Below are positions 1,516 to 15,090 of a stretch of DNA of 15,090 nt, one piece after another. The notes under the pieces are model-generated. The model saw only the letters and a program-made list of their open reading frames with translations. It searched no databases and was not told where the DNA came from. Origin of the DNA: Oscillospiraceae bacterium (GTDB lineage: Bacteria; Bacillota; Clostridia; Oscillospirales; Oscillospiraceae); the NCBI GenBank assembly GCA_017458025.1, contig JAFTGG010000066.1, positions 1-15,090 of the forward strand, read 5' to 3'. The position numbers were made by a program, and so were the translations under genes. The first letter of the stretch is position 1. Every line of letters starts with the position of its first letter.

Positions 1516-1550
1516 GACATAGCGCCTCCCGTTTCAAAATTTCGCAATAT

Positions 1551-1579: not shown

Positions 1580-1606
1580 GCGGCGGTTTATCCAACCGCC
1601 GCTTGC
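1571..1606 (-). terminator. Intrinsic terminator of the bioY-DUF1284 unit
   Basis: A perfect 13-bp stem pairs 1576-1588 with 1594-1606 around a 5-base loop, followed on the minus strand by TTTTATATT. The hairpin includes the last codons and stop codon of the DUF1284 gene, so the coding end and the terminator overlap. Confidence 0.85.
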
Positions 1607-1974
1607 GAGCAGATATCGTACCATTGACAGTCGCCGCAGACCTCGCAGAGCCGTCCCGCGTCGAGGATACGCTCGCGTACGAGCGCGCGCAGCGCCGACC
1701 AGCGCAGGGTTTCGCCGGCGTTGAGGCCGGTCAGCCGCAGGACGCCCGCGTCGTACCGCGCGGTCTTCTCCGCGCTGTCGCAGACGCCGCCGTTGTTATG
1801 CGGACAGCTCCGGCAGACGCCGTCGGCGGCGCCGCGCAGCGTCAGGAGAGGGTCTGACGCGCGCAGCGCGCCGACGAGTTCCGCCATGTTGTCGACAAAC
1901 GCAGGGGAATAGCCCTTGCCTTGAAAAAACTCCACACAGAGCGCGTGGTGCGCGCGCAACTCAGAGATGGACAT
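1588..1974 (-). CDS. DUF1284-family cysteine-rich protein
   Basis: The 128-residue product opens with the hallmark of the DUF1284 family: RAHHALC near the N-terminus (residues 7-13), then GKGYS and F-x-x-N-M. No biochemical role is established for the family that I can name. Two cysteine clusters stand out: C54-x2-C57-x7-C65, and C110-x2-C113-x2-C116-x5-C122 near the C-terminus. Such spacing suggests an iron-sulfur or other metal site, which is inference. There is no signal peptide or membrane segment, so it is probably cytoplasmic. Its ATG (1974-1972) lies inside the end of bioY, a 14-base overlap in a different frame, which suggests translational coupling. Because it would be transcribed from the biotin-controlled promoter, a link with biotin supply is possible but unproven. 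Confidence 0.85.
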   Translation of the reverse strand: MSISELRAHHALCVEFFQGKGYSPAFVDNMAELVGALRASDPLLTLRGAADGVCRSCPHNNGGVCDSAEKTARYDAGVLRLTGLNAGETLRWSALRALVRERILDAGRLCEVCGDCQWYDICSQAAVG

Positions 1975-2533: not shown

Positions 2534-2573
2534 GGTTGTGATCTCCTTTTGACGATTGCGATTTGATACTACC

Positions 2574-2602: not shown

Positions 2603-2628
2603 CCACAAAATGCAAAAAAGGTTTACTA
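2596..2628. promoter_or_regulatory. BirA-type biotin operator over the bioY -35 box
   Basis: Two inverted half-sites, TTGTCAACC (2596-2604) and GGTTTACTA (2620-2628), are separated by exactly 15 bases. The known Firmicutes BirA pattern is TTGTWAACC, a spacer of about 15, then GGTTWACAA, so each half differs by one base. The right half also begins a perfect 16-bp palindrome (2620-2635), adding a third half-site. Binding of biotinyl-AMP-loaded BirA would cover the -35 box. The regulator gene is not in the window; the match is to a known consensus, not to data for this organism. Confidence 0.8.
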
Positions 2629-2687
2629 GTAAACCCCGAAAAACGCGGACAGCAAAAATTTTGAGGTTGCTCATAGGCAACAATCGC

Positions 2688-2716
2688 TTGCAAAAGACCG
2701 TGGCGCATGATATACT
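2688..2716 (+). promoter_or_regulatory. Promoter of the rubrerythrin cassette
   Basis: A -35 TTGCAA (2688-2693) and a -10 TATACT (2711-2716) have a 17-base spacer and lie about 46 bases before the rubrerythrin start. Just upstream is a small inverted repeat, GTTGC (2666-2670) and GCAAC (2677-2681), a possible regulator site. No PerR-box match was seen. The unit diverges from bioY. Confidence 0.75.
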
Positions 2717-2762
2717 GCGGACACAAGCGCAGACTTGAAAAAATCTACAGGAGGATATCAGC

Positions 2763-3350
2763 ATGAAGAAATGGGTATGTTCCGTTTGCGGATACATCTT
2801 TGAGGGGGAGAATCCCCCTGAGCAGTGCCCCATCTGCAAAGCCCCCGCGGACAAGTTCAATGAGAAGAAAGAGGGCGAGACCCTCGCCGCCGAGCACGTT
2901 TACGGCGTCTATGACAAGTTTGTCAAAGACAACAAGGACGTTCCCGAGGCGGACAAGCAGTACATGCTCGAACAGCTCAAGGCCATGTTCCACGGCGAGT
3001 GCAGCGAGGTCGGTATGTATCTCTGCATGGCGCGCGTCGCGATCCGTGAGGGCTATCCCGAGATTGGCGCGTACTGGGAGAAGGCGGCTTGGGAAGAGGC
3101 CGAGCATGCCGCGATGTTTGCCGAGCTGCTGGGCGCCGAGCTGGAGCCGAGCATGACCGACAGCACGAAGAAGAACCTCGAATGGCGCGTGGACGCGGAG
3201 TTCGGCGCGACGAAGGGCCGCTTCGATCTCGCCGCCTGCGCGAAGAAGAACAACATCGACCCGATCCACGACGCGGTGCATGAAATCGGGCGTGACGAGG
3301 CGCGCCACTGCCGCGCGTTCAAGGGCCTGCTGGACAGATACTTTAAGTAA
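2763..3350 (+). CDS. Reverse-type rubrerythrin (rubredoxin domain N-terminal)
   Basis: Rubrerythrins are cytoplasmic diiron peroxidases that protect anaerobes by reducing hydrogen peroxide with electrons from NADH via rubredoxin-type carriers. The 195-residue product begins with a rubredoxin-like knuckle (C6-x2-C9 and C22-x2-C25). It continues with a four-helix ferritin-like domain showing iron-binding helices around [10 protein letters not shown], an E-x2-H motif in EEAEHAAMF, and a second in [10 protein letters not shown]. Having the rubredoxin domain first is the 'reverse' arrangement known from clostridia, where the protein supports oxygen and peroxide tolerance. The start has AGGAGG 7-8 bases upstream. 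It is the first gene of a plus-strand cassette with a DUF4177 protein and a rubredoxin, which could be its electron donor. Confidence 0.93.
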
Positions 3351-3358
3351 GCGTCGAG

Positions 3359-3544
3359 ATGTCGAAAATGGTCTACAAGGTCGATTCCTTCGGCTGTACG
3401 TTTTCCACGAGAGGAAAGTTCACTGCACAGCTTCAAGAGATCATCGATAAATATGCCGCCGACGGCTGGAAGCTTCATTCCTACGAGACGCCCGGCGCGA
3501 TCGGCGAGCTTTGCGTAGTCGTTTTCTACAAGGAAATTGAGTAA
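3359..3544 (+). CDS. Small DUF4177-like protein
   Basis: The 61-residue product begins [12 protein letters not shown] and has a central amphipathic helix ([16 protein letters not shown]), followed by KLHSYETPG and a hydrophobic strand ELCVVVFYK. This beta-helix-beta layout with the D-G-W-x-L-x-S motif is typical of DUF4177 proteins. No molecular function is known for that family that I can name. It starts only 8 bases after the rubrerythrin stop with little Shine-Dalgarno sequence, so it probably depends on coupling to the upstream gene. A second ATG at 3368 is possible but less likely. It sits between rubrerythrin and rubredoxin, so a role in that peroxide-reducing unit is suggested by position only. 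Confidence 0.8.
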
Positions 3545-3560
3545 AAAGGAGGACGCACAA

Positions 3561-3713
3561 ATGAAATACGTTTGCCCCTGCGGCTATGAGTACGACCCCG
3601 CCGTCGGCGATCCCGACAGCGGCATCGCTCCCGGCACCCCGTTCGAGGCGATCCCCGACGATTGGGTCTGCCCGGTCTGCGGTCTGAGCAAGAGCGACTT
3701 CGTCCCCGCGTAA
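3561..3713 (+). CDS. Rubredoxin with a Cys-X-Cys first metal loop
   Basis: Rubredoxins are small one-iron electron carriers. This 50-residue protein shows the family core: [20 protein letters not shown], an F-E-x-I-P-D-D-W segment, and CPVCG near the C-terminus (C37-x2-C40). The first loop reads V-C5-P-C7-G-Y, one residue shorter than the usual C-x2-C-G-Y, so the iron site should be somewhat strained or altered. The codons are TGC CCC TGC with the frame intact on both sides, so this is an in-frame difference. A strong AAAGGAGG (3545-3552) sits 8 bases before ATG 3561. As the last gene of the cassette it probably passes electrons to the reverse rubrerythrin. It ends at the terminator at 3726-3755. 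Confidence 0.93.
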
Positions 3714-3725
3714 GCAGCGACTGAG

Positions 3726-3755
3726 AAAGAGTGAGGCGTGAGCCTCACTCTTTTT
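3726..3755 (+). terminator. Intrinsic terminator of the rubrerythrin cassette
   Basis: A perfect 12-bp stem pairs 3726-3737 with 3742-3753 around the loop GTGA, ending in five T residues (3751-3755). It lies 12 bases after the rubredoxin stop codon. Confidence 0.9.
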
Positions 3756-3778
3756 GTGCATTTTGCTTAATTTTTATG

Positions 3779-3807
3779 TAGACAAACCTCACGCCTTGTG
3801 CTATACT
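3779..3807 (+). promoter_or_regulatory. deoC-deoD-kinase promoter
   Basis: A -35 TAGACA (3779-3784) and a -10 TATACT (3802-3807) are separated by 17 bases, about 38 bases before the deoC start. No clear DeoR or catabolite-responsive (cre) site was recognised next to it. Confidence 0.75.
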
Positions 3808-3845
3808 GTCCATAATATACACGAATTTACAAGGAGGAGATTCCC

Positions 3846-4520
3846 ATGAATGTTCAAGAGATCCTGCGTCATGTCGACCACACGCTGCTCGCGCAGGGCG
3901 CGACCTGGGACGAGATCAGGCAGATCTGCGACGACGGCATGAAGTACGGCTGCGCGTCGGTCTGTATCCCGCAGAGCTATGTCAATCGCGCGTCTCGCTA
4001 CATTGCCGCGGCCTGGCGCGAAAAGGGCAGTTGGCTGCCGGTGTGCACCGTCATCGGCTTCCCGAACGGCTACAGCCCCACCACCATCAAGTGCCTCGAA
4101 GCGGGCAACTCCGTCGCCGACGGCGCGGGCGAGATCGACATGGTCGTCAACGTCGGCTGGGTCAAGGACGGGCTGTACGACCTCGTCGAAAAAGAGATCA
4201 ACGAGATCAAGGTCGCCTGCCGCGGCCGCGTGCTCAAGGTCATTATCGAGACGTGCCTGCTCACCGACGAGGAGAAGATCAGGCTCTGCGAGGTCGTGTC
4301 GCGCTCGAACGCGGACTATATCAAGACCTCGACCGGCTTTGCCGGCGGCGGCGCGACCCGCGAGGACGTCAAGCTGATGGTGGAGCACTGCAAGGGCAAG
4401 CTCGTCAAGGCGGCGGGCGGCATCGCCAATCTCAAGGACGCGGAGGACTTTCTTGCCCTCGGGGCCGACCGGCTCGGTACGTCGAGGATCGTAAAGGCCG
4501 TCAAGGCTATGGAGAAATAA
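3846..4520 (+). CDS. deoC: Deoxyribose-phosphate aldolase
   Basis: DeoC is a cytoplasmic class I aldolase that splits 2-deoxyribose-5-phosphate into acetaldehyde and glyceraldehyde-3-phosphate, the last step of deoxynucleoside breakdown. The 224-residue protein is full length. The Schiff-base lysine is K160 in DYIKTSTGF, the second active-site lysine is K188 in VKAAGG, and the family segments VCTVIGFPNG, GAGEIDMVVNVG and LKVIIET are present. The C-terminal GADRLGTSR phosphate loop is intact. The start is marked by AAGGAGGAG (3831-3839). It heads a three-gene run with deoD (17-base gap) and a nucleoside kinase (37-base gap), with no terminator between, so an operon is very likely. Confidence 0.97.
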   Translation: MNVQEILRHVDHTLLAQGATWDEIRQICDDGMKYGCASVCIPQSYVNRASRYIAAAWREKGSWLPVCTVIGFPNGYSPTTIKCLEAGNSVADGAGEIDMVVNVGWVKDGLYDLVEKEINEIKVACRGRVLKVIIETCLLTDEEKIRLCEVVSRSNADYIKTSTGFAGGGATREDVKLMVEHCKGKLVKAAGGIANLKDAEDFLALGADRLGTSRIVKAVKAMEK

Positions 4521-4537
4521 GAAGGGGAGAAGAATAT

Positions 4538-5290
4538 ATGGCAACACCGCATAACAGCGCCGAAGCCGGCGCGTTCGCAAAGACCGTATTGATGCCCGGC
4601 GATCCGCTGCGCGCGAAGTTTATCGCCGAGACGTTCCTCGACGACGCGAAGCTCGTCAACAACGTGCGCGGCATTCACGGCTACACCGGCGCCTACAAGG
4701 GCACGCCGGTGAGCGTGATGGCGTCCGGCATGGGCTGCCCGTCCATCGGCATCTACTCTTACGAGCTGTTCACGATGTACGGCGTGGACAACATCATTCG
4801 CATCGGCTCCGCCGGCGCGATCTCTCCCGACCTCAAGCTCCGCGACGTGGTCGCGGGCATGGGCGCGTGCACGAACTCGTCGTTCGCGCGGCAGTACCGC
4901 CTGCCCGGCACGTTCGCGCCGATTTGCAGCTACGAGCTGCTGGCGATGGCGGTCGAGGCGGCGGGGGAGATCGGCGTGCGCATGCCGGTGGGCAACCTGT
5001 TCTCGTCCGACACGTTCTACGACGCGGCGGCGTCCTCGATGGAGTGGGCGAAGATGGGCTGCATGGCGATCGAGATGGAGGCGGCGGCGCTCTACTGCAA
5101 CGCCGCGTACACGCACAAGCGCGCGCTCGCGATCTGCTCGATCTCGGACAGCCTCGTCACCGGCGAGGAGCTGGACGCCGACGAGCGCCAGACCACGTTC
5201 ACCAATATGATGAAGATCGCGCTGGAGGTCGCCGTCAAGGCGACGAAGCTGCCCTCGCTCACGGGCTCGGGCAACGCGGCGAGCAAGTAA
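4538..5290 (+). CDS. deoD: Purine-nucleoside phosphorylase, DeoD type
   Basis: This enzyme splits purine (deoxy)ribonucleosides with phosphate to free base and (deoxy)ribose-1-phosphate. The 250-residue product matches the hexameric DeoD family: phosphate-loop GDPLRAKFIAE near the N-terminus, GMGCPSIGIYSYEL, the arginine in IIRIGSAGAI, the ribose-binding EMEAAALY, and D204 in SISDSL, the position of the base-binding aspartate in the E. coli enzyme. A tail after VAVKATKLP makes it slightly longer than usual. ATG 4538 follows AGGGGAG at about 8 bases; a longer frame reaching upstream runs through deoC and is not used. The product feeds DeoC only after conversion by phosphopentomutase, which is not encoded in this window. 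Confidence 0.96.
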   Translation: MATPHNSAEAGAFAKTVLMPGDPLRAKFIAETFLDDAKLVNNVRGIHGYTGAYKGTPVSVMASGMGCPSIGIYSYELFTMYGVDNIIRIGSAGAISPDLKLRDVVAGMGACTNSSFARQYRLPGTFAPICSYELLAMAVEAAGEIGVRMPVGNLFSSDTFYDAAASSMEWAKMGCMAIEMEAAALYCNAAYTHKRALAICSISDSLVTGEELDADERQTTFTNMMKIALEVAVKATKLPSLTGSGNAASK

Positions 5291-5327
5291 ACGGGATACG
5301 GAAAGCGCACAGGAAAGGAGAAACACC

Positions 5328-6254
5328 ATGCGTGTGATCGACATTGAAGACATCACCGAGGCGATGGAGGACCAAACGGCGTTTGTGCTGCGCTGCGAGG
5401 AGGAGTACAGGGACAAGATCAGCGCCGCCGCGGCGAAGATCCTGCGTAACCGGAAGGAAAAGCCCATTGTCTGCCTGACCGGCCCCTCCGGCTCCGGCAA
5501 GACCACGACGGCGATGCGGCTCAAAATGTACATTGAAAATCTGGGCGTGCCCGTGGGGCTCGTGAGCATGGACAACTTCTTCCTGCCGCTGAATAAGCGC
5601 CCGCCCGAGGCGTCCGACTGGGAGTCGCCCTACTGCGTCGACCGGCAGGGTCTCGCGGACTGCATCCTGCGCCTTGCCGACGGCGAGGACGTGAACGCGC
5701 CGTGGTACGACTTTAAGACCGGCGACATCGGCGGCTACCGCGCGCTGCACGGCGACAAGGACGGCATCATCATCGCCGAGGGCATCCACATGCTCAACCC
5801 GCTGATCCTCGACCTTTTGAAGGGCGAGTATACGGGCGTCTACGTCGCGCCGCGCACGCGCATCATCACGAACGACGACAAGATCGTCGATCCGGAGAAG
5901 CTGCGCGTCGCCCGCCGCATGCTCCGCGACCTGATCGGGCGCGGGCACAGCCTGCGCAGCACCGTCGAGCGCGCGCAGAGCGTCGACCGCGGCGAGATGA
6001 ACTATATCCAGCCGAACAAGGTCAACGCGAGTATCCACATCAACACGTTCCACGACTACGAGCCGTGTATTCTCTCAAAGTACCTGCACGACATTCCGGA
6101 GTTCCACGAGCAGCTCGACGGCGAGTTCATCGAAATGCACGGCCTGACCGACCTGATGAAGGTCGTCAAGTCCGTCCCGCCGCTGACGACGCCCTATGTG
6201 CCGAAGAACTCGCTGGTGCGCGAGTTTGTGGGCGGCAGTATCTTTGAGTACTGA
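5328..6254 (+). CDS. Uridine kinase-like nucleoside kinase
   Basis: The 308-residue protein carries a Walker A P-loop GPSGSGKT (residues 52-59) after a helical extension of about 45 residues. The following kinase core is that of the phosphoribulokinase/uridine kinase family, with GLVSMDNFFLPL after the P-loop (the family's substrate-binding aspartate region), APWYDFKTGDI, and IIIAEGIHMLNP, which fits the Walker B strand. The second half has RRMLRDLIGRG, the usual lid-type arginine stretch of uridine kinases. It would phosphorylate a nucleoside, probably uridine or cytidine, to the monophosphate in the cytoplasm; the exact substrate cannot be read from sequence. It is longer than typical Udk (about 210 residues). 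A good AAAGGAG lies 7 bases before the start. Third gene of the deoC-deoD unit, so salvage and breakdown are expressed together. Confidence 0.85.
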   Translation: MRVIDIEDITEAMEDQTAFVLRCEEEYRDKISAAAAKILRNRKEKPIVCLTGPSGSGKTTTAMRLKMYIENLGVPVGLVSMDNFFLPLNKRPPEASDWESPYCVDRQGLADCILRLADGEDVNAPWYDFKTGDIGGYRALHGDKDGIIIAEGIHMLNPLILDLLKGEYTGVYVAPRTRIITNDDKIVDPEKLRVARRMLRDLIGRGHSLRSTVERAQSVDRGEMNYIQPNKVNASIHINTFHDYEPCILSKYLHDIPEFHEQLDGEFIEMHGLTDLMKVVKSVPPLTTPYVPKNSLVREFVGGSIFEY

Positions 6255-6262
6255 TTTCCGGC

Positions 6263-6291
6263 TTGACAGGGGACAATAAAATCAGTATATT
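6263..6291 (+). promoter_or_regulatory. Strong promoter before the EIIC-type permease gene
   Basis: A perfect -35 TTGACA (6263-6268) and a -10 TATATT (6286-6291) are separated by 17 bases, beginning only 8 bases after the kinase stop codon. The expected start of transcription, near 6297-6299, falls inside the inverted repeat that begins directly after the -10 box. Confidence 0.85.
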
Positions 6292-6325
6292 GTGATTCAC
6301 GGGCGTTTCGGCGCCCGTGAATCAC
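6292..6325. repeat. 34-base perfect inverted repeat at the transcription start
   Basis: Fourteen bases at 6292-6305 pair perfectly with 6312-6325 around a 6-base centre. The outer arms are GTGATTCAC and GTGAATCAC, each itself a near-perfect small dyad (GTGA-x-TCAC). It abuts the -10 box and has no T-run after it, so it is not a standard terminator. It could be a double operator for a repressor or a 5'-end RNA hairpin. Confidence 0.7.
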
Positions 6326-6351
6326 ATGTAGAGAAAAAGCGGGTGCTCGCA

Positions 6352-7425
6352 ATGTCTGACTTCAAAGCGTTTCTCCGGCGCAAAAACATCGAATTTTCCG
6401 CCAAGCGCTACGGTATCGGCGCGCTCGGCGCGATGGCGCAGGGCCTGTTCTGTTCGCTGCTTATCGGCATGATCATTCGCACGCTGGGGCAGCAGCTCGG
6501 CGCGCAGTTTCTGACTGACATCGGCACCTACGCGATGGCGGTCTCCGGCCCCGCGATGGCGGTCGCCATCGGCTATGCGCTGCAAGCGCCGCCGATGGTG
6601 CTGTTCTCGCTCGCGGCGGTGGGCTGGGCGGCGAACGCCGAGGGCGGCGCGGGCGGCCCGCTGGCGGTGCTCGTCATCGCCATCGTCGCCGCGGAGTGCG
6701 GCAAGGCGGTCAGCAACGAGACGAAGGTCGATATCCTTGTCACGCCCGCCGCGACCATTCTCGTCGGCGTTGCGCTGGCGAAGTGGATCGCGCCGCCCAT
6801 CGGCACGGCGGCGAGCGCGTTCGGCCTTGTCATCGACGAGGCGACGAGGCTCCGGCCGTTCTCGATGGGCGTCGCCGTGTCGGTGCTCGTCGGCGTCGCG
6901 CTGACGCTGCCCATTTCGTCCGCGGCGATCTGCTCCGTGTTGGGGCTGACCGGCCTCGCCGGCGGCGCGGCGGTGGCGGGTTGCTGCGCGCAGATGGTCG
7001 GCTTCGCCGTCATGTCGTTCCGCGAGAACAAGTGGGGCGGCCTCGTTTCGCAAGGGCTCGGCACGTCGATGCTTCAGATGCCGAACATTGTCAAAAACCC
7101 GCGCGTCTGGATCGCGCCCATTGTGACGAGCGCCGTCACCGGCCCCATTGCGACCTGCGTGTTCGGGTTGGAAATGAACGGCGCGCCCATCAATTCCGGC
7201 ATGGGCACCTGCGGCCTCTGCGGCCCCATCGGCGTCTGGACAGGCTGGCTCGCGCCGAGCGAGGACGCGCTCGCCAAGGGCGCGGCGGCAATTTCGCCCA
7301 CCGCCTTCGACTGGCTGGGGCTGATCCTCATCAGCATCGTCCTGCCCGCGGTGCTCTGCCCGATCATCAACGGGGTCTGCCGGAAGCTGGGCTGGGTGAA
7401 GGACGGCGACCTGACGCTCGCGTGA
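6352..7425 (+). CDS. PTS EIIC-type membrane permease (PTS_EIIC_2-like), stand-alone
   Basis: The 357-residue product is a multi-pass membrane protein with roughly eight to ten hydrophobic segments rich in Gly and Ala. Its pattern is that of the PTS_EIIC_2 family: NIEFSAKRYGIGALGAMAQGLF at the start, then the GYALQAPPMVLFS and NETKVDILVTPAATILVG stretches, and FGLEMNGAPINSGMGTCG with GPIGVWTGW later. Such proteins are annotated as sugar-specific IIC permeases, but no EIIA or EIIB gene is present here, so it may use partners from elsewhere or work without phosphotransfer. ATG 6352 is chosen as the match to the family start, although its ribosome site is weak; GTG 6343 is an alternative. The neighbours suggest a sugar or nucleoside-related substrate, which is inference. 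Confidence 0.85.
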   Translation: MSDFKAFLRRKNIEFSAKRYGIGALGAMAQGLFCSLLIGMIIRTLGQQLGAQFLTDIGTYAMAVSGPAMAVAIGYALQAPPMVLFSLAAVGWAANAEGGAGGPLAVLVIAIVAAECGKAVSNETKVDILVTPAATILVGVALAKWIAPPIGTAASAFGLVIDEATRLRPFSMGVAVSVLVGVALTLPISSAAICSVLGLTGLAGGAAVAGCCAQMVGFAVMSFRENKWGGLVSQGLGTSMLQMPNIVKNPRVWIAPIVTSAVTGPIATCVFGLEMNGAPINSGMGTCGLCGPIGVWTGWLAPSEDALAKGAAAISPTAFDWLGLILISIVLPAVLCPIINGVCRKLGWVKDGDLTLA

Positions 7426-7433
7426 GCGGGCGC

Positions 7434-7458
7434 GAAAGCCGCTGATACAGCGGCTTTC
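7434..7458 (+). terminator. Hairpin after the permease gene, without a T-run
   Basis: A perfect 10-bp stem pairs 7434-7443 with 7449-7458 around GATAC, 9 bases after the permease stop codon. The sequence that follows is not T-rich, so it may only weaken transcription or protect the 3' end of the message. Confidence 0.45.
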
Positions 7459-7472
7459 AGCGGAAATGGGGA

Positions 7473-7501
7473 TTGACTTTCTCCGGCTGTTTCGATAAAC
7501 T
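7473..7501 (+). promoter_or_regulatory. yjjI-yjjW promoter
   Basis: A -35 TTGACT (7473-7478) and a -10 TAAACT (7496-7501) have a 17-base spacer, about 40 bases before the yjjI start. This gives the glycyl radical enzyme pair its own transcript, possibly with read-through from the permease gene. No FNR- or cre-type site was recognised. Confidence 0.7.
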
Positions 7502-7540
7502 GAAGGACACGGTTAATATGAGAAAAGGAGCGTTGTCATT

Positions 7541-9064
7541 ATGAGTCAGGTTTTGGACATTATTCAGGACGAGACCTTAACGTATCATCAGGAGGTGCTG
7601 GCGCTGGCGCGCCTCGGCGAGAGCACGGATACCACCACGCTGCGCTACAGCGACGATTATTACCGCGCCAAGGAGAAGATGGCGCTTTGCGACCTGAACG
7701 AGGGCCCCATGCCCTACCGTCCGCGCTATATCTGTCCGGACTATGAGCTGCTGTTCCGCAAGGGCTGCAAATTCTTGGAGCTTGAGCCGCCCACCGACCT
7801 GCTGGAGGCGGTCAACGCGCTGGAGATTTTTTACGCGCACGTCCCGTCCATCACGAGCTTTCCGGTCTACCTCGGCGACCTCGACAAGCTGCTGGAGCCG
7901 TTCGTCGTCAAGGAGGACCGCGCGTTTGCCAAGAAGGTGCTGCGATTGTTCCTGCTGCAAATCGACAAGGTGCTGACCGACTCGTTCGTCCACGCGGACA
8001 TCGGTCCGGAGGACAGCGTCACCGGCCGTATCCTGCTGGAGCTGACCGAGGAGATGCAGCTCGCCGTGCCGAACCTGACGCTCAAGTACGACCCCGAGCG
8101 CACCAGTCAGGACTTTGCCTTGGCGTGTATCAAGTGCATGCTCAAGACCGCCAAGCCGTCGTTCGCGAACCACCGCATGTTCACTGAGGAGTGGGGCGAG
8201 GACTACGCCATCGCATCCTGCTACAACGGCCTCAAGAAGGCGGGCGGCGGCTACACGCTGCCGCGCATGCGCCTCTATGAGTGCTCGCTCGACGCCAAGA
8301 GCCCCGAGGACTTTCTTGAGCGCGTGTTGCCGTACTATATGGATTTGCAGCTTGAGTACATGGACAAGCGCGTCAAGTTCATCGTGGAGCAGTCCACGTT
8401 CTTCAAGCACAACTTCCTCGTTACCGAGGGCTTTGTCAAGCAGGAGAACTTCACCGGCATGTTCGGCCTCGTCGGCCTCGCCGAGTGCTGCAATCACCTG
8501 CTGGGCATCGAGGACAAGAAGAAGGGCTTCGGCCTGAACAAAGAGGCGACCGCGCTCGGCGTGAAGATCATGGACCGCATCGAGTCCTACGTCGCTGCGC
8601 ACGAGGCGCCCTACTGCGAGGGCTTCGGCCATCGCTACCGCCTGCACGCGCAGGTCGGCATCGACACCGACGGCATGGACGACGCGCCCGGTACGCGTAT
8701 CCCCATCGGCGTCGAGCCGACGATGCTCGAACAGCTCGAGGTCAACGAGCAGTTCCACAAGTATTTCCCCACCGGCACCGGCGACATCTTCAAGTTCGAG
8801 GAAACCTACCTCAAAACGCCGGAGGCGATCCTGCCCATCATCAAGGGCTCGCTCGCGAACGGCCTGCGTTACTTCAGCGGGTATCTGGAGAACAACGACG
8901 TGGTGCGCGTCACGGGCTACCTCGTGAAGAAGTCCGAGATCGAGAAGCTCAGCGCGCGCAAGCAGTCGCTCAACAACGTCACGGTGTTCGGCAAGGGCGC
9001 GCAGGACGGCGGCCACGCGCTCGACCGCAGAGTGCAAAAAGATGGCGAGCTTCGCGCCGGTTAA
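7541..9064 (+). CDS. yjjI: Glycyl radical enzyme, YjjI family
   Basis: Glycyl radical enzymes carry a protein radical on a C-terminal glycine, made under anaerobic conditions by a radical SAM activase, and use an active-site thiyl radical on the substrate. This 507-residue product is near the length I recall for E. coli YjjI (about 516). The radical motif is RVTGY, with G459 47 residues before Y-tail end. The likely thiyl loop is GLVGLAECCN, with adjacent C316 and C317; this resembles the finger loop of anaerobic ribonucleotide reductase more than pyruvate formate-lyase. No reaction is known to me for the family. It has AAAAGGAG upstream of the ATG and overlaps yjjW by 23 bases. Its place beside deoC, deoD and a nucleoside importer suggests a nucleoside- or deoxyribose-derived substrate. 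Confidence 0.93.
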   Translation: MSQVLDIIQDETLTYHQEVLALARLGESTDTTTLRYSDDYYRAKEKMALCDLNEGPMPYRPRYICPDYELLFRKGCKFLELEPPTDLLEAVNALEIFYAHVPSITSFPVYLGDLDKLLEPFVVKEDRAFAKKVLRLFLLQIDKVLTDSFVHADIGPEDSVTGRILLELTEEMQLAVPNLTLKYDPERTSQDFALACIKCMLKTAKPSFANHRMFTEEWGEDYAIASCYNGLKKAGGGYTLPRMRLYECSLDAKSPEDFLERVLPYYMDLQLEYMDKRVKFIVEQSTFFKHNFLVTEGFVKQENFTGMFGLVGLAECCNHLLGIEDKKKGFGLNKEATALGVKIMDRIESYVAAHEAPYCEGFGHRYRLHAQVGIDTDGMDDAPGTRIPIGVEPTMLEQLEVNEQFHKYFPTGTGDIFKFEETYLKTPEAILPIIKGSLANGLRYFSGYLENNDVVRVTGYLVKKSEIEKLSARKQSLNNVTVFGKGAQDGGHALDRRVQKDGELRAG

Positions 9065-9884
9065 CAAGATCATTCCGTTTTCCAATGTGGACGGTCCGGG
9101 CAACCGCACGTCGATCTTCTTTCAGGGCTGCTGCTTCGACTGCCTGTTCTGCCACAATCCCGAGACGATCCATCTGTGCGTCCACTGCGGCGACTGCGTC
9201 AAGACCTGCCCCGCCGGGGCGCTGCGCCTGCGGGACGGGCGCGTGACGTGGGACGATAAGGCGTGCGTCAACTGCGACGCCTGCCTCAAGACCTGCACGC
9301 ACGGCGCGTCGCCCAAGGTGCGGCAGATGTCGGTGGAGGACGTGCTGCGCGAGATCGACCGGGCGCTGCCGTATATCGACGGCGTCACCTGCTCCGGCGG
9401 GGAGTGTACGCTGCGCAACGACTTCATGATCGAGCTGTTCGCAGAGGTGCAAAAGCGCGGCAAGACCTGTCTCGTCGACTCCAACGGCTCGTTCGACTTT
9501 GAAAAGGACCCGCGTATCCTCGCCGTCTGCGACGGCGTGATGCTCGACGTCAAGGCGGTGGACGCGGCGTGGAGCCGCGAGCTGGTTTCCTTTGCGCCGG
9601 ATCTGGTGCTCCGCAATCTCGACTATCTGCTGCGAGCCGGCAAGCTGTACGAGGCGCGCACGATCATCTTTCCGGATCGCGACAGGGAAAATGAGGAGAC
9701 CGTCCGCTATGTGGCGGAGCATATCGGCGACGGCTGCTTTTACAAGCTCATTCGCTACCGTCCCTTCGGCGTACGCGAGGCGAATATTCCGCGCATGGGC
9801 GAGTTCACGACGGACGCGGAGTACGCCGAGCGCTACGCGCGGCTCGCGCGCAGCCTCGGCGCGTCGAAGGCATATGTTGTCTGA
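9042..9884 (+). CDS. yjjW: Glycyl radical enzyme activase, YjjW family (radical SAM)
   Basis: This 280-residue radical SAM protein would cleave S-adenosylmethionine to make the glycyl radical on YjjI. It shows the radical SAM cluster motif C30-x3-C34-x2-C37 within GCCFDCLFCHN. After it comes a ferredoxin-like insert with two four-cysteine sets, C46/C49/C52/C56 and C75/C78/C81/C85, typical of activases other than PflA. The GGE motif (residues 119-121, in TCSGGECTL) contacts the methionine part of SAM. The start ATG 9042 lies inside yjjI in another frame and has little Shine-Dalgarno sequence, so translation is probably coupled to yjjI. It ends just before a very strong terminator. The pairing with yjjI in the same order of enzyme then activase makes the assignment firm. 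Confidence 0.94.
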   Translation: MASFAPVNKIIPFSNVDGPGNRTSIFFQGCCFDCLFCHNPETIHLCVHCGDCVKTCPAGALRLRDGRVTWDDKACVNCDACLKTCTHGASPKVRQMSVEDVLREIDRALPYIDGVTCSGGECTLRNDFMIELFAEVQKRGKTCLVDSNGSFDFEKDPRILAVCDGVMLDVKAVDAAWSRELVSFAPDLVLRNLDYLLRAGKLYEARTIIFPDRDRENEETVRYVAEHIGDGCFYKLIRYRPFGVREANIPRMGEFTTDAEYAERYARLARSLGASKAYVV

Positions 9885-9885
9885 C

Positions 9886-9921
9886 AAAAAGAACCACGGC
9901 CAATCGGCCGTGGTTCTTTTT
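9886..9921. terminator. Bidirectional terminator between yjjW and the ABC importer
   Basis: A perfect 16-bp stem pairs 9886-9901 with 9906-9921 around the loop AATC. It is bordered by five A on the left and five T on the right, so it has a U-run in either direction. It lies between the stop codons of two converging genes, 1 base after yjjW and 7 bases after the permease gene on the other strand. Confidence 0.95.
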
Positions 9922-9928
9922 GCGGTTG

Positions 9929-10873
9929 TTATTTTGACTTGATATACGGCTTGCCGTTCGCGGCCGGAACGCGGGACTTGCCGACGAACAGGATCAGCAC
10001 GATGACCGTGACCACATAGGGGATCATGGACAGCAACTGCATGTTCACGCCGGACGAGCCGCCCAGCACGACCTTGAGGCCGGAGCAGAAGCCGAAGAGC
10101 AGGCAGCCCAGCAGCGCGCCCTGCGGGCGGAACTTGCCGAAGATGACCGCCGCGATGGCGATGAAGCCCTGGCCGACGATGGAGATCGGGCGGAACTGCG
10201 TCGAGATCGCCATCGTGACGCAGGCGCCGCCGAGACCGGACAGGAAACCGGAAATGCACACGCACCAGAAGCGCATGGACAGCACGTTGATGCCGAGCGT
10301 CTCGCACGCCTGGGGATGCTCGCCGCAGGCGCGCAGGCGCAGGCCGAAGCGGGTTTTGTAGAATATGAACCACACCAGCAGCGTCGCGAGGAAGACCAGG
10401 TATGTGCTGGCGTAGGTCGCGAACACGTTGTCCATGAACCGGCCGAACACCGTGGAGGTGTCGAACACGTCGCGAAACAGCCGCGGGATCTTCATGCTCG
10501 CCTCCAGCGGAATGGTGTCCGTGGAGTCGAACATGACGCGGGCGATCATGATGACGATGCCGGGGCCGAGCATGTTGATCGCGGTACCGGCGATGGTCTG
10601 GTCCGCGCCGAGGCGGACGGTGGCGAGCGCGTGGAGCGCGCCGAACAGCATGCCCGCGAGGCCGCCGCAGAAAAAGCCGATCCACGGGTTGCCGGTGAAG
10701 TACGCGACGACCGTGCCGGTGAACGCGCCGGCGGTCATCATGCCCTCAATGCCGATGTTGACGACGCCGGACACCTCGGAGAAGCAGGAGCCCAGCGCGG
10801 CGTACAGCAGCGGCGTGGTGTAGATCAGGGTGGCATAGAGGATAATGCCGAGACTGTTGATGAAGTTCGTCAT
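9929..10873 (-). CDS. Nucleoside-type ABC transporter permease (NupQ/YufQ-like)
   Basis: This 314-residue inner-membrane protein has eight to ten hydrophobic segments and belongs to the BPD_transp_2 group of ABC permeases. The N-terminal part carries SEVSGVVNIGIEGMMTAGAF, the group's E-G signature, and the central part shows RLGADQTIAGTAINML and GLRLRACGEHPQACETLGINV, both typical of the second permease of BMP-type nucleoside importers. Its ATG overlaps the stop of the upstream permease gene (ATGA, 10870-10873) and has AAAGGAGG about 10 bases upstream. It is the last gene of an ATPase-permease-permease operon that ends at the shared terminator at 9886-9921. Nucleoside specificity is inferred from the family and from deoC/deoD nearby. 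Confidence 0.92.
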   Translation of the reverse strand: MTNFINSLGIILYATLIYTTPLLYAALGSCFSEVSGVVNIGIEGMMTAGAFTGTVVAYFTGNPWIGFFCGGLAGMLFGALHALATVRLGADQTIAGTAINMLGPGIVIMIARVMFDSTDTIPLEASMKIPRLFRDVFDTSTVFGRFMDNVFATYASTYLVFLATLLVWFIFYKTRFGLRLRACGEHPQACETLGINVLSMRFWCVCISGFLSGLGGACVTMAISTQFRPISIVGQGFIAIAAVIFGKFRPQGALLGCLLFGFCSGLKVVLGGSSGVNMQLLSMIPYVVTVIVLILFVGKSRVPAANGKPYIKSK

Positions 10874-11994
10874 GCCTTGTCACCCTCCTTTGCTTTGTCC
10901 GCCCCCGCGGGAGGCGCGGCTTGCGGTTTTTTCTGAAAGCGCTTGAGATTCGTAAAGATCACGGAAATGGCGATGAAGAACACCACCGTGCCGACGATGA
11001 CGTTGACCAACTGCGTCGGCGCGCCCACGAGGTTGAGCTTGCTGCCGCCGTAGATCAGCGCGCCGTAGAAGATACCGGCGATGAACACGCCGAAGGGATT
11101 CGAGATACCCATCAGGGCGACCACGATGCCGGCGAAGCCGAAGCCCTCCTGCGAGGAGAAGACCGAGATACGGCCGCCCATGCCCATCAGCTGCAAGGAG
11201 CCGGCGAGACCGGCGAGCGCGCCGGAGATGGCGAGCGCCGTGAGGATCGAGCGGTTGACGTTGATGCCGCCGTACTCCGCGGCGAACTTATTTGAACCCA
11301 CCGCTTTGAGCTCGTAGCCGAGCGTGGTCTTTTCAATGATATACCAGACGAGGACCGTCATGGCGATCGCCACCAGAATGCCCCAGTTGGCGGTGGGGGC
11401 GAGGCCCGCGCGGCTGATGAAATCCTGCGAGAGCAGCGTGCGCGCGTTTTCGGAGATGTTCTTCGTCGCCTCGGCGCTGCCGTCGGAGTGAATAGCGGGA
11501 ATGCCGGCGATGAAGTTGCTCAGATAGAAGGCGATCCAGTTGAACATAATCATGCTCAGCACTTCGTTGATGCCCCACTTGGTTTTGAGAAAGCCCACGA
11601 CGACGCCCCAGAGCGCGCCCGCCGCCATCGCGGCGAGGAAGCACAGCGGGATCAGCAGGAGCTTGGGAAGGCTGCCGAGCAGAATACCCACCACGGCGGC
11701 GGACATCGAGCCGATGACGAACTGCCCCTCCGCGCCGATATTAAACACGCCCGTTTTAAAGGAGAACGCCACGGACAGGCCGGCGACAATGTAGGGGATC
11801 GCGTAAACGATGACGTAAGAGAAGCCCTTGACGCCCGTCACGCTCGAAAGCAGGCGCCCGTATGCGTCGCCCACGGACACGCCGAGGATCGCGAGGAAGA
11901 CGGCGCCGACCAGAAAGCCGAGAATGATGGAGAGAATGGTGTGGATAAATTGGTTTTCCGAGACCACATCCCAAAAGCCCTTTTTCTTAGTCAT
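10870..11994 (-). CDS. Nucleoside-type ABC transporter permease (NupP/YufP-like)
   Basis: The 374-residue product is the larger permease of the importer, with a cytoplasmic N-terminus (MTKKKGFWDVVSENQF), about ten hydrophobic segments, and the signature FNIGAEGQFVIGSM. It also has WGINEVLSMIMFNWIA and GYELKAVGSNKFAAEYGGINV, matching the first permease of BMP-family systems. A large outward loop with FIAGIPAIHSDGSAEATKN separates the middle helices. ATG 11994-11992 is chosen because AGGAGGTG lies just before it; an in-frame GTG at 12003 falls inside that ribosome site. It overlaps the ATPase gene by 8 bases and the next permease by 4, which indicates tight translational coupling. Confidence 0.93.
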   Translation of the reverse strand: MTKKKGFWDVVSENQFIHTILSIILGFLVGAVFLAILGVSVGDAYGRLLSSVTGVKGFSYVIVYAIPYIVAGLSVAFSFKTGVFNIGAEGQFVIGSMSAAVVGILLGSLPKLLLIPLCFLAAMAAGALWGVVVGFLKTKWGINEVLSMIMFNWIAFYLSNFIAGIPAIHSDGSAEATKNISENARTLLSQDFISRAGLAPTANWGILVAIAMTVLVWYIIEKTTLGYELKAVGSNKFAAEYGGINVNRSILTALAISGALAGLAGSLQLMGMGGRISVFSSQEGFGFAGIVVALMGISNPFGVFIAGIFYGALIYGGSKLNLVGAPTQLVNVIVGTVVFFIAISVIFTNLKRFQKKPQAAPPAGADKAKEGDKA

Positions 11995-13510
11995 GCTTCG
12001 CACCTCCTCCCGCCATCATCAATCCGAGGTCGTTTTCGTTCGCGTCCTTGCCGGGAATGGAGTTGACGATCTGACCGTCGAAGATGACGTCGATGATATC
12101 GGACAGGCTCATGATCTCGTCCAGCTCGAAGGAGACCAGCAGCACCGCCTTGCCCTTGTTGCGCTGCTCCACGATGTACTTGTGGACGTACTCGATCGCG
12201 CCCACGTCCAGACCGCGGGTGGGGTTGACGGCGATCAGCAGGTCCTTGTCGTTCTGCACCTCGCGGGCGATGATGACCTTCTGCTGGTTGCCGCCGGAGA
12301 GCGTTCCCGCCGGACGCTTCTCGCTGCTTCTCGGACGGATATCGTAGTGCTCGATGGACTCGCTTGCGTGGCTGAAGATGGGCTCGCGCTGCAAAACGCC
12401 CTTCTTGGAGAACGGGTCCTTGTCGTAGTTCTGCAGGATCAGGTTGTCCTCGATGGAAAAGTCCAGCACGAGGCCGTGCTTCTGGCGGTCGGCGGGAATG
12501 GAGCTGACGCCGTGTACGAAGCCGAAGTGCGGCGGCTTGTTGAACACGTCGACGCCGTTCACGAGCACCTGGCCGGATTCGCCCTTGCGCAGGCCCGTGA
12601 TGACCTCGACCAGCTCCGTCTGGCCGTTGCCGTCGATGCCGGCGATGCCGACGATCTCGCCGCGGCGCACCTGCAGGTTGAGGCCCTTGACGATCTCGAC
12701 GCCGCGGTAGTCCTTGCAGCGCAGGTCCTTGACGTCCAGCACGACCTCGCCCGGCGTCTGCTCGGGTTTATCGACCTTGAACGTGACCTTGCGGCCGACC
12801 ATCATGCTGGCGAGGTCGTTCTCGTCCACCTTTTCCACGTCCACGGTGTCGATGTACTTGCCCATGCGAATAATGGTGCAAAAGTCCGCCGACTCCTTGA
12901 TCTCCTTGAGCTTGTGGGTGATGAGAATGATGCTCTTGCCGTCGGCGGTCAGGTTGTGCATGATCTCGATCAGCTCCACGATCTCCTGCGGCGTGAGCGA
13001 GGAGGTCGGCTCGTCGAGGATCAGGATCTCCGCGCCGCGATACAGCGCCTTGAGGATCTCGACGCGCTGCTGCATGCCGACGGAAATGTCCTCGATCCTG
13101 GCGTCCGGATCAATGGACAGGCCGTAGCGCTCGGAGATCTCCACCACGTTCCTGCGCGCGGTCTCCATATCGAGCGCGACGCCCTTGCGCGGCTCCGTGC
13201 CAAGGACGATGTTTTCCGTTACGGTGAAGGGCTGGACCAGCATGAAGTGCTGGTGGACCATGCCGATCCCCGCGTCGATCGCGTCGCGGGGATTGTCCAT
13301 CACGATCTTCTGCCCCTTGACCAGAATGTCGCCGGAGGTGGGCTTGAGCAGGCCGTAGAGCTGGTTCATCAGCGTGGACTTGCCCGCGCCGTTCTCGCCC
13401 AGGATCGCGTGGATATCGCCTTTGTGGACGGTGAGGTTGATGCCGTCATTGGCGGTAAAGTCGCCGAATTTCTTGACGATGTTCCGCATTTCGATGACGG
13501 GGGTGCTCAT
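11987..13510 (-). CDS. Nucleoside-type ABC transporter ATPase, two cassettes (NupO/YufO-like)
   Basis: This 507-residue cytoplasmic protein energises the importer and holds two fused ABC domains. The first has Walker A GENGAGKST (residues 38-46), signature ISVGMQQR and Walker B LILDEPTSSL. The second has a degenerate Walker A (GIDGNGQTEL), signature LSGGNQQK and a Walker B-like LLIAVNPTRGLD without the catalytic glutamate, as is usual for the second half in this group (also RbsA- and MglA-type proteins). The start is taken at ATG 13510-13508, giving MSTPVIEMRNI, with AAAGGA about 10 bases upstream. A TTG at 13531 with AGGGGG before it would add seven residues and cannot be excluded. It leads a three-gene operon with the two permeases and has its own weak promoter downstream of the lipoprotein gene. 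Confidence 0.95.
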   Translation of the reverse strand: MSTPVIEMRNIVKKFGDFTANDGINLTVHKGDIHAILGENGAGKSTLMNQLYGLLKPTSGDILVKGQKIVMDNPRDAIDAGIGMVHQHFMLVQPFTVTENIVLGTEPRKGVALDMETARRNVVEISERYGLSIDPDARIEDISVGMQQRVEILKALYRGAEILILDEPTSSLTPQEIVELIEIMHNLTADGKSIILITHKLKEIKESADFCTIIRMGKYIDTVDVEKVDENDLASMMVGRKVTFKVDKPEQTPGEVVLDVKDLRCKDYRGVEIVKGLNLQVRRGEIVGIAGIDGNGQTELVEVITGLRKGESGQVLVNGVDVFNKPPHFGFVHGVSSIPADRQKHGLVLDFSIEDNLILQNYDKDPFSKKGVLQREPIFSHASESIEHYDIRPRSSEKRPAGTLSGGNQQKVIIAREVQNDKDLLIAVNPTRGLDVGAIEYVHKYIVEQRNKGKAVLLVSFELDEIMSLSDIIDVIFDGQIVNSIPGKDANENDLGLMMAGGGAKHD

Positions 13511-13562
13511 GTCCACATGTTCCTTTGCCAAATAGATCGCCCCCTTGTCTGTGAATAATAAT

Positions 13563-13591
13563 ATTGTACCATACCGGAATACATTTTTCTA
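13563..13591 (-). promoter_or_regulatory. Weak promoter for the ABC ATPase-permease operon
   Basis: On the minus strand a good -10 TACAAT (13563-13568) and a weak -35 TAGAAA (13586-13591) are separated by 17 bases, about 50 bases before the ATPase start. It lies just after the terminator of the lipoprotein gene and would give the transporter core its own lower-level transcript, in addition to any read-through. Confidence 0.6.
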
Positions 13592-13601
13592 CATAAAATT
13601 G

Positions 13602-13635
13602 AAAAAACAGGCGCCGCCCATTCGGGCGGCGCCTG
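13602..13635 (-). terminator. Terminator after the BMP lipoprotein gene
   Basis: A perfect 12-bp GC-rich stem pairs 13608-13619 with 13624-13635 around a 4-base loop, followed on the minus strand by six T (13602-13607). It separates the lipoprotein gene from the downstream ATPase gene. Confidence 0.93.
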
Positions 13636-13663
13636 CCGTGCGTTGGCCGTGAGGATCGTGGAA

Positions 13664-14674
13664 TCAGTTGAGCGTGAACGCCGGGCACTCGGCGACGGTG
13701 GTGGGGACGCTCTTCTTGCCGTCGATGATCTCCTTCTTGGCGCCCTCGACATAGGTCAGAACGTCGGCGGGGATGTGGTCGCGGGTCGGGGCGAGGTCAA
13801 CGCCGCCGTTGGAGAGGTCATACATGTGGATACCGGCGGTGAAGCTGCCGGCCTTGACCGCCTTGGAGATATCCTGGGAGGCGATGTCGACGCGCTTCAT
13901 AGCGGAGGTGATGACGTGATCCGGAGCGAGGATCGACTGGTCGGTATCGACGCCGATGGCCCAGATGCCTTCCTCGTTGCACGCCTCGATGACGCCCATG
14001 CCGGTGCCGCCCGCCGCGTGGTAGATGACGTCGGCGCCCTGGGTGATCATGTTCTTGGCGGCGGTGGAGCCGCCGGCGGAGTCGCCGAAGGAGTTGGCGT
14101 TATACTGCAGAACGGTCGCGTCGGGGCAGACCTCGAGGACGCCGGTGATGTAGCCGATGCCGAAGAGGTTCATCTGATCGGAGACCATGCCCTGCACATA
14201 GCCGACGGTCTTGGACGAGGTGACGGAGCCGGCGACGAGGCCGACGAGGTAGGAAGCCTGCTCCTGCGCGAACATCAGGCAGGCGACGTTCGGCAGATCA
14301 ATGCTGGAGTCGTCGATGATGGCGAACTTCTGGTCGGGGTTGGCCTCGGCGGCCGCCTTGGTGGCGTCCGCGAGCATGTAGCCGACGCAGATGATCAGGT
14401 CATAGCCGTCGTCGATGAAGGTGTTGATGTTGGTCTGATAGTCCGCGTCGGTCTTGCTTTCGAGGTACTTGACCTCAAAGCTGCTGTCCTCGGCCGCGAG
14501 CGCCTGCAGGCCTTCCCAGGAGGTCTGGTTGAAGGACTTGTCGTTGACGCCGCCGACGTCGGTGACCATACCGATTTTGGTCTTGGAGCCGGAGCTGCCG
14601 CTGTTGCCGCTGCCGCAGGCAACGAGCGCGAACACCATACACAGAGCAAGGACAAGAGCAAGGATCTTTTTCAT
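13664..14674 (-). CDS. BMP-family nucleoside-binding lipoprotein (NupN/BmpA-like)
   Basis: This is the extracellular substrate-binding protein of the importer, tethered to the membrane by lipid. The 336-residue precursor starts with a classic lipoprotein signal: positive KK, a hydrophobic core and the lipobox LVAC, with C20 as the lipidated residue. A Gly/Ser-rich linker follows. The mature domain opens with IGMVTDVGGVNDKSFNQTSW, the hallmark of BMP proteins such as BmpA, PnrA and Med, which bind nucleosides. Later segments such as LIICVGYMLAD, IYHAAGGTGMGVIEA and AIGVDTDQS are also typical. ATG 14674-14672 is chosen with GGAGGA 6 bases upstream; a longer frame to 14809 runs through the promoter. 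It forms its own unit between a promoter (14735-14763) and a terminator, upstream of the ATPase operon, which permits higher expression of the binding protein. Confidence 0.95.
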   Translation of the reverse strand: MKKILALVLALCMVFALVACGSGNSGSSGSKTKIGMVTDVGGVNDKSFNQTSWEGLQALAAEDSSFEVKYLESKTDADYQTNINTFIDDGYDLIICVGYMLADATKAAAEANPDQKFAIIDDSSIDLPNVACLMFAQEQASYLVGLVAGSVTSSKTVGYVQGMVSDQMNLFGIGYITGVLEVCPDATVLQYNANSFGDSAGGSTAAKNMITQGADVIYHAAGGTGMGVIEACNEEGIWAIGVDTDQSILAPDHVITSAMKRVDIASQDISKAVKAGSFTAGIHMYDLSNGGVDLAPTRDHIPADVLTYVEGAKKEIIDGKKSVPTTVAECPAFTLN

Positions 14675-14734
14675 GTTGTTTCCTCCGTAAAAATTTTTTT
14701 GGACCTTTCTGGGAAAGGACCCATATCTTTGCTT

Positions 14735-14763
14735 AGTATACCATAGCCCCGCCGGACAATCAA
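14735..14763 (-). promoter_or_regulatory. Promoter of the BMP lipoprotein gene
   Basis: On the minus strand a -35 TTGATT (14758-14763) and a -10 TATACT (14735-14740) are separated by 17 bases, about 60 bases before the start codon. The -35 box overlaps the stop codon of the upstream ylbJ-like gene. Confidence 0.75.
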
Positions 14764-15090
14764 GGATAAAAATGCCCAAAAAATTGCAGTTGCGACACAA
14801 ATATCGCAAGTGGCACGGAAAGCAGCGCCTGCACGGCTTTTCCGAGGAAATACCACCGCGCCGAAAGCCCCGTGCCGTCGAGCACCGAGAGCGTCTGCGC
14901 GTGGACGCTCAGCCCGCCCCAGCCCAGCAGCGCCGCGCAGAGCACGAAGCCGCCGCGGTCGGCGCGCAGCGCCAGCACGCCGTTCGTCAGCTCGACGAAG
15001 CCGAGCAGCAGCGGACGGTCCGGCAGCACGAGCGTCGCGAGCCGCAGCACCACCGCGAACAGCACCACGAACCCGCACACGCTCCACACC
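14760..15090 (-). CDS. ylbJ: C-terminal part of a YlbJ-like sporulation membrane protein (start outside the window)
   Basis: A minus-strand frame enters from the right edge and ends at TGA 14762-14760. The visible 109 residues hold several hydrophobic segments and the stretch FVELTNG, then LLGWGGLSVHAQTLSVL followed by YFLGKAVQALLS. This matches the C-terminal region of YlbJ, an integral membrane protein needed for sporulation and spore coat formation in Bacillus, where a similar GG-x-SV-x-AQ segment occurs. The family belongs to the 'nucleoside recognition/gate' domain group, whose name is not good evidence of nucleoside transport. The N-terminal two thirds lie outside the window, so another gate-domain protein is possible. 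It is the nearest upstream gene to the BMP lipoprotein on the same strand. Confidence 0.65.
   Translation of the reverse strand, partial: VWSVCGFVVLFAVVLRLATLVLPDRPLLLGFVELTNGVLALRADRGGFVLCAALLGWGGLSVHAQTLSVLDGTGLSARWYFLGKAVQALLSVPLAIFVSQLQFFGHFYP

Follow-up and report, generated by a model that had tools for sequence, protein, structure and literature searches.

YjjI, a compact glycyl radical enzyme recurrently linked to nucleoside uptake and breakdown genes, and its locus in an Oscillospiraceae genome

The yjjI-yjjW locus

The gene pair yjjI-yjjW was studied in a contig of an Oscillospiraceae bacterium (assembly GCA_017458025.1, contig JAFTGG010000066.1, positions 1 to 15,090, forward strand); this whole stretch of 15,090 nucleotides (nt) is referred to as the window. 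The pair encodes a glycyl radical enzyme and its radical SAM activase. It is flanked by deoC, deoD and a kinase gene on one side and by a BMP-type ATP-binding cassette (ABC) importer on the other (Table 1), as described in the first-pass annotation, which did not mention an additional PF13303 membrane protein gene. A comparison of yjjI neighbourhoods with control loci provides good support that the link between YjjI and nucleoside genes is real and extends past the enterobacteria.

The YjjI protein of the window is a true member of its family. It scores 650.6 bits against TIGR04040 (curated cut-off 498.3; NCBIfam scan) and matches PF11230 (formerly DUF3029) with E 7e-202 in the Pfam scan. It possesses an SCYN motif and, within the previously recognised RVTGY radical motif (residues 456-460), the TGY motif, and it is accompanied by YjjW. 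The latter reaches 333.8 bits against TIGR04041 (cut-off 250.2; NCBIfam scan) and displays one CxxxCxxC motif (C30, C34, C37) and two CxxCxxCxxxC clusters starting at C46 and C75, in agreement with the radical SAM and ferredoxin-type clusters initially noted. The overlap of both genes, likewise seen before, amounts to 23 nt. The AlphaFold2 (AF2) model of YjjI has a pLDDT of 88.4. In NCBIfam (June 2026) YjjI is listed as a hypothetical equivalog only.

Table 1. Genes, residues and sequence signals of the window.
Feature	Position	Strand	Basis
DUF1284 protein	1588..1974		
Rubrerythrin with N-terminal rubredoxin-like domain	2763..3350		
Promoter-like site before deoC	3779..3807		consensus match
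deoC, deoxyribose-phosphate aldolase	3846..4520	+	TIGR00126 211 bits, cut-off 117.3
deoD-type purine-nucleoside phosphorylase	4538..5290	+	TIGR00107 295.1 bits, cut-off 232.25; PF01048
Phosphoribulokinase/uridine kinase-family kinase	5328..6254	+	PF00485 E 2.9e-15
Promoter-like site before EIIC gene	6263..6291		consensus match
PTS_EIIC_2-family membrane protein	6352..7425	+	PF13303 E 1.4e-86
Promoter-like TTGACT-17-TAAACT before yjjI	7473..7501	+	consensus match
yjjI, compact glycyl radical enzyme, 507 aa, intact	7541..9064	+	TIGR04040, PF11230
Cysteine C227 of YjjI, invariant in family	codon 8219..8221	+	
Radical glycine G459 of YjjI	codon 8915..8917	+	
yjjW, radical SAM activase, two 4Fe-4S ferredoxin-type motifs, 280 aa	9042..9884	+	TIGR04041, motifs
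Terminator-like 17-pair stem-loop directly 3' of yjjW, between convergent yjjIW and BMP operons	9885..9922	+	
BMP-type ABC importer permease 2	9929..10873	-	PF02653; NF047928 under cut-off
BMP-type ABC importer permease 1	10870..11994	-	PF02653; NF047929 under cut-off
BMP-type ABC importer double ATPase	11987..13531	-	PF00005, two stretches
BMP/PnrA-type nucleoside-binding lipoprotein (predicted)	13664..14674	-	PF02608 E 2.6e-67

Linkage of yjjI to nucleoside genes

The 107 loci compared comprise the window, its 80 closest relatives, six records from a plasmid collection and 20 more. With 80 of 107 being close relatives the sample is uneven, and many loci run into contig ends. A yjjI gene was called in 106 loci (it was missed in L053), and 44 lineages were distinguished at 75% identity. 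Controls were 20 of 34 listed places with enzymes resembling pyruvate formate-lyase (PFL), taken from yjjI-bearing genomes, and 40 arbitrary loci.

Of the 44 lineages, 20 have a gene of the nucleoside panel no more than five genes away from yjjI, compared with none of the 20 PFL-like loci (Fisher 1.0e-4) and two of the 40 arbitrary loci (Fisher 1.7e-5), where the tests treat lineages, which are not independent draws. The first-pass annotation had inferred a functional link to nucleoside uptake and breakdown, which these counts bear out. The neighbour count it had proposed against other glycyl radical enzymes, outside the lineages of the window and of E. coli, likewise gives 18/42 versus 0/20 PFL-like loci (Fisher 2.3e-4). 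The BMP binding protein alone occurs in 13/44 lineages and in 0/60 control loci (Fisher 4.2e-6). An evenly drawn phylum sample (19 loci in 13 lineages) has a panel gene in six lineages and BMP in four; a seventh lineage has only a BMP-type permease.

When families within eight genes of yjjI are counted with no preset list, YjjW recurs in 39/44 lineages, ABC ATPases in 23, the BMP binding protein in 13, BMP-type permeases in 11, deoD/udp in six, and rubrerythrin and pdp in four each. Three lineages each have deoC, udk, cdd, deoB, xpt and pfkB; an aldo/keto-reductase-like protein and several housekeeping families recur equally often. The names of these families were mostly assigned by eye, some by scan. 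Beside the rubrerythrin-like cluster near yjjI in 4/44 lineages we note the rubrerythrin gene upstream of deoC in the window. Xanthine phosphoribosyltransferase genes adjoin yjjIW or lie near it in L128 (scanned) and in L132 and L104 (by cluster).

The arrangements differ among lineages. In 11 of them a nucleoside gene is contiguous with yjjIW on the same strand (gaps of up to 250 nt; between yjjI and yjjW up to 700 nt, since the gene caller often starts yjjW late). The pair lies inside an importer/deo cluster in L114, L092 and L113. In the window's own lineage, 9 of 47 loci carry it on the opposite strand, flanked by the importer genes for the ATPase and the binding protein. L127 has the order yjjI-yjjW-mtnA-class II aldolase-DeoR-like-BMP, and its mtnA, class II aldolase and DeoR-like genes (L127:4174-8188) resemble a 5-deoxyribose/methylthioribose (dihydroxyacetone phosphate, DHAP) shunt coupled to the uptake of nucleosides. 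Judged by their record names, lineages with the link include genomes of the Clostridia/Erysipelotrichia type, E. coli and a single Spirochaetes genome (L109), which is linked through udk only, within five genes. Linked lineages are dispersed across the YjjI tree: on a quick tree the linkage label changes 14 times, and well supported branches force at least nine of these changes.

Relatives of yjjI also occur in plasmid records (15, ranging in size from 180 kb to 4.9 Mb) and in four phage-collection records. No nucleoside gene was found within 12 kb of yjjI in the Haliovirga plasmid, and the Chloroflexota plasmid has only a ribokinase, about 9 kb from yjjI.

Conserved residues and comparison with other glycyl radical enzymes

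C227 is the only cysteine invariant across the YjjI lineages (44/44). In the S226-C227-Y228-N229 loop the serine and asparagine are likewise found in 44/44 lineages and the tyrosine in 43/44, and the radical glycine G459 is invariant (44/44). The "CC loop" to which the first-pass annotation had drawn attention (C316-C317) turned out to be unconserved and not a PFL-like dyad, as position 316 is Cys in 26/44 lineages and position 317 is Cys in 2/44 and Val in 37/44. Another cysteine, C50 (window positions 7688-7690), is present in 40/43 lineages including E. coli and is missing only in L133, L134 and L135.

The finger loop of PFL (YGIACC) aligns with that of YjjI (YAIASC), and profile alignment pairs YAIASCYN of YjjI with YGIACCVS of PFL. 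However, PFL possesses a Cys-Cys dyad (C418-C419 in E. coli) where all 44 YjjI lineages have S226-C227. The first cysteine of the dyad is the acyl carrier, and because a serine stands in its place, PFL-type acyl transfer by YjjI appears unlikely from the alignment. The three full-length dyad PFLs of the control set are 740-742 aa long, versus 507 aa in YjjI. Among the 14 control proteins of the PFL-like type, 13 gave a match to CC or GC[VT]E in a simple motif search. Glycyl radical dehydratases and YbiW/PflD, with their GCVE loop, share with YjjI a single thiyl cysteine, the glycyl radical and a radical SAM activase with extra clusters, but have Glu two residues past the thiyl cysteine where YjjI has Asn (44/44).

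The core of the YjjI model is nearest in fold to class III ribonucleotide reductase (NrdD), with which YjjI shares the barrel fold, the finger-loop cysteine and the C-terminal glycine radical. Matches were obtained with Pfam NRDD (E 9.3e-7) and with an NrdD profile (E 2.6e-15), while the NCBIfam scan of YjjI returned TIGR04040 alone at E 0.001 and no NrdD model. In the profile alignment of YjjI and NrdD the finger-loop cysteines were five columns off; the three families were realigned with MAFFT, which places C227, the finger-loop cysteine of NrdD and the second cysteine of the PFL dyad in a single column. NrdD has a second catalytic cysteine (C79 in the T4 enzyme), which would fall on R60 (profile) or I64 (MAFFT), neither of which is a cysteine, with C50 nearby. 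Asn311 of NrdD (T4 numbering) aligns with a position (residue 237) that probably corresponds to it and is Ser, Gly or Ala in 42/44 lineages and Asn in 1/44. The window's YjjI has no C-terminal zinc cysteines (its sole CxxC, at 196-199, is unconserved), no NxN flap was found in it by motif search, and the Pfam scan detected no ATP cone. An ordinary NrdD is also present in 12/12 yjjI genomes queried. YjjI was not placed among the ordinary ribonucleotide reductases for the lack of an NrdD score, of Asn311 and of zinc cysteines, although C50 may take the part of the second cysteine.

Relatives in E. coli and earlier work

YjjI is present in E. coli, Salmonella, Yersinia and Haemophilus. The E. coli protein is 38.9% identical to that of the window over 90% of the query, and both loci share an overlapping yjjI-yjjW pair of the same family, adjacent deo genes and the SCYN and TGY motifs. 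The E. coli pair does adjoin deoCABD, as stated in the first-pass annotation, and is divergent from it, whereas in the window yjjIW is codirectional with deoC-deoD. Furthermore, the window's pair faces a BMP importer, of which none is present in the E. coli stretch viewed.

A network of E. coli from 2009 grouped YjjI with YeiM and YjjJ in a module for the transport of nucleotides and the degradation of deoxyribonucleosides (PMC2672614). A study from 2011 proposed that YjjI has an NRDD-like domain and a role in nitrogen metabolism, reported that yjjI co-clusters with narGHJI, and called HI0521 a pflB homologue (PMC3228777). The gene is reported to be directly activated by FNR (PMC3688515; PMC2634741), anaerobic induction in Yersinia was 4.3-fold for yjjI and 2.1-fold for yjjW (PMC3792023), and a CRP site is located between yjjI and deoC (PMC4287617). 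Crp/Fnr-type regulators near yjjI in L092 (7197-7808) and L105 (16968-17513) fit anaerobic control outside E. coli. No assigned activity of YjjI was found in the literature searched, with most subscription journals outside its reach.

The nucleoside link of YjjI as such is not new, as the association with deoxyribonucleoside degradation had been drawn for E. coli in 2009, and this weakens the initial description of the locus as a candidate for an undescribed pathway. New here are the control-tested link beyond enterobacteria, the association with importers, and arguments from individual residues that speak against both PFL-type chemistry and membership of the ordinary ribonucleotide reductases.

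Possible role of YjjI

Most likely, YjjI acts on nucleosides or their sugar under anaerobiosis. We tentatively interpret YjjI-YjjW as an oxygen-sensitive radical enzyme and activase that may form an optional anaerobic part of nucleoside import and catabolism and may be redox-neutral on a nucleoside-derived pentose, a reading to which we give a substantial, though less than even, chance. YjjW would generate the glycyl radical at G459, from where it would be relayed to C227. The resulting thiyl radical would abstract a hydrogen from the pentose of a nucleoside or from a nucleoside-derived sugar. The reaction would be redox-neutral, i.e., an elimination or rearrangement rather than a reduction, and its product would enter the ordinary phosphorylase, DeoB or DeoC steps.

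If YjjI acts on nucleosides, radical chemistry would be added to the Deo pathway, which is regarded as complete. An FNR-activated gene adjoining deoCABD would be accounted for, and the fate of nucleic-acid sugars in anaerobic gut and rumen bacteria would be shown. The narrowing to a control-tested link, one invariant cysteine, no acyl-carrying cysteine and a reductase fold without Asn311 or zinc site makes this old E. coli orphan directly testable.

In a bolder version, which we consider decidedly unlikely, YjjI would be the first enzyme of nucleoside catabolism to use a glycyl radical. With a pared-down ribonucleotide reductase fold it would perform the first half of the reductase reaction on the ribose of PnrA-imported nucleosides, as a redox-neutral elimination. 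YjjI would in this case have lost both Asn311 and the customary reducing cysteine and gained the Asn two residues past the thiyl cysteine. The result would be a phosphate-independent anaerobic opening of ribonucleosides or modified nucleosides.

Several observations weigh against a role on the nucleoside-derived pentose. The hidden Markov models of the nucleoside panel were built from the neighbourhoods themselves, with families selected for recurring by yjjI. The linkage recurs across lineages without being obligate, since 24/44 lineages have no panel gene within five genes of yjjI. No nucleoside family is among the 25 commonest Pfam families in the 122 of 142 neighbours of these 24 lineages that were scanned, a listing in which rarer families would not appear. 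The substrate may also be a nucleobase or a non-nucleoside compound. The recurrence of the aldo/keto-reductase-like gene (assigned by eye, three lineages, mostly on the other strand) makes an aldehyde product compatible with the gene context. The profile closeness of YjjI to PFL-like enzymes (E 4.9e-14) nearly equals that to NrdD. Finally, C50 may be a second working cysteine, which would leave room for a redox role; this slightly lowered our confidence in the redox-neutral pentose chemistry and slightly raised that in a reductase.

We also have to consider that, alternatively, the linkage is due to a common ecology or regulation, in anaerobic gut bacteria that feed on nucleic acids from the host or its diet, while YjjI acts elsewhere, e.g., in anaerobic nitrogen or redox metabolism, as has been proposed on the basis of co-expression. 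The unlinked majority of lineages would fit this explanation, as would the FNR activation of yjjI and its co-clustering with narGHJI (PMC3228777), although the latter is to be expected of any FNR-activated gene. The PFL-like enzymes of yjjI-bearing genomes have no such link (0/20), and yjjIW is located within nucleoside operons in several arrangements, so that we regard an ecological or regulatory coincidence as rather unlikely.

Deoxyribose 5-phosphate or a DeoC product (acetaldehyde or glyceraldehyde 3-phosphate) might be the substrate, possibly with PFL-like chemistry. This idea, which goes back in part to the first-pass annotation, draws on the position of deoC, which is codirectional upstream in the window, divergent in E. 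coli, and also near yjjI in L113 and L060. The mtnA-class II aldolase pair yields acetaldehyde from 5-deoxyribose, and the pair adjoining yjjI in L127 would do so were this its substrate; the aldo/keto-reductase-like cluster mentioned above is likewise in line with the idea. However, deoC occurs within eight genes of yjjI in only three lineages, and YjjI has Ser-Cys where PFL has Cys-Cys. Co-occurrence of deoC (28/29 yjjI genomes) carries no signal because the base rate in the phylum sample is similarly high (254/299 genomes), and it was dropped as evidence for the link. DeoC products have thus become less plausible than first proposed, and we consider a substrate of this kind improbable. As separate observations, the genome of L082 has yjjI, an NrdD gene and a second deoC in a stretch of about 17 kb (G303:C17:578980-596419), and a deoC homologue adjoins a different PFL-like glycyl radical enzyme in another genome (G300:C3:301170-303966).

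Still less probable, in our view, is a second anaerobic ribonucleoside or ribonucleotide reductase that converts imported ribonucleosides to deoxyribonucleosides. NrdD as the nearest fold, the Pfam NRDD match, the nucleoside context and the nearly conserved C50 speak for it. Against it stand the residues that appear to replace the second catalytic cysteine and Asn311 of NrdD, the lack of zinc cysteines, NxN, ATP cone and an NCBIfam NrdD match, and the normal NrdD of the genomes queried. A PFL-type acyltransferase or extra formate source, to which the naming of HI0521 as a pflB homologue (PMC3228777), the PFL-like profile match and the lack of a PFL-like enzyme at E 1e-30 in 14/29 yjjI genomes might point, is very improbable given the serine in place of the first dyad cysteine and the much shorter protein.

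Importer and other features of the window

The best solved relative of the BMP/PnrA-type binding protein is 7x0r, "Lbp" (E 1.4e-126, 425 bits), followed by the lipoprotein 6yab and Treponema TmpC (2fqw). For a C. thermocellum protein named Lbp, density was fitted as guanosine (PMC9601137), and 7x0r is probably this protein, judging from the shared name. By analogy with Lbp and PnrA, the lipoprotein of the window is predicted to bind nucleosides. Its sole NCBIfam match is a B6-transporter model, at 101.4 bits far under the cut-off of 400. The window's importer shares with the PnrA, TmpC and Lbp importers a Bmp-domain lipoprotein, a double ATPase and two BPD_transp_2 permeases in one operon, and differs from them in being combined with a radical enzyme. 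A figure legend of PMC9601137 shows genes labelled "hp" and "rsam" among the C. thermocellum transporter loci, including that of Lbp.

The genes for DeoC, DeoD, the kinase and the PF13303 protein are codirectional with yjjI, with successive gaps of 17, 37, 97 and 115 nt. The kinase has an N-terminal extension and reaches 60.4 bits against the udk model, far under the cut-off of 220.3. The PF13303 gene sits between the kinase gene and yjjI, and neither EIIA nor EIIB is among the identified neighbours in the window. PTS_EIIC_2 was rejected as a conserved partner of yjjI, as the remaining 46 loci of the lineage to which the window belongs showed none.

The promoter-like site before yjjI and the stem-loop after yjjW, both consensus matches, suggest that yjjIW may be a transcription unit of its own. 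Promoter-like sites number four in the window versus a shuffle mean of 1.3 in the consensus scan, which by itself is no evidence of function. Terminator-like sites are not in excess (five versus 5.2 in shuffles), but the stem following yjjW is the longest, the next having 14 pairs (3724-3755). Rfam and tRNA scans of the window gave no matches.

The window's genome assembly comprises 2.0 Mb in 282 contigs, and its nearest named relatives are rumen and gut genomes with conflicting labels. At the far end of the window from the importer, the gene of the DUF1284 protein adjoins bioY.

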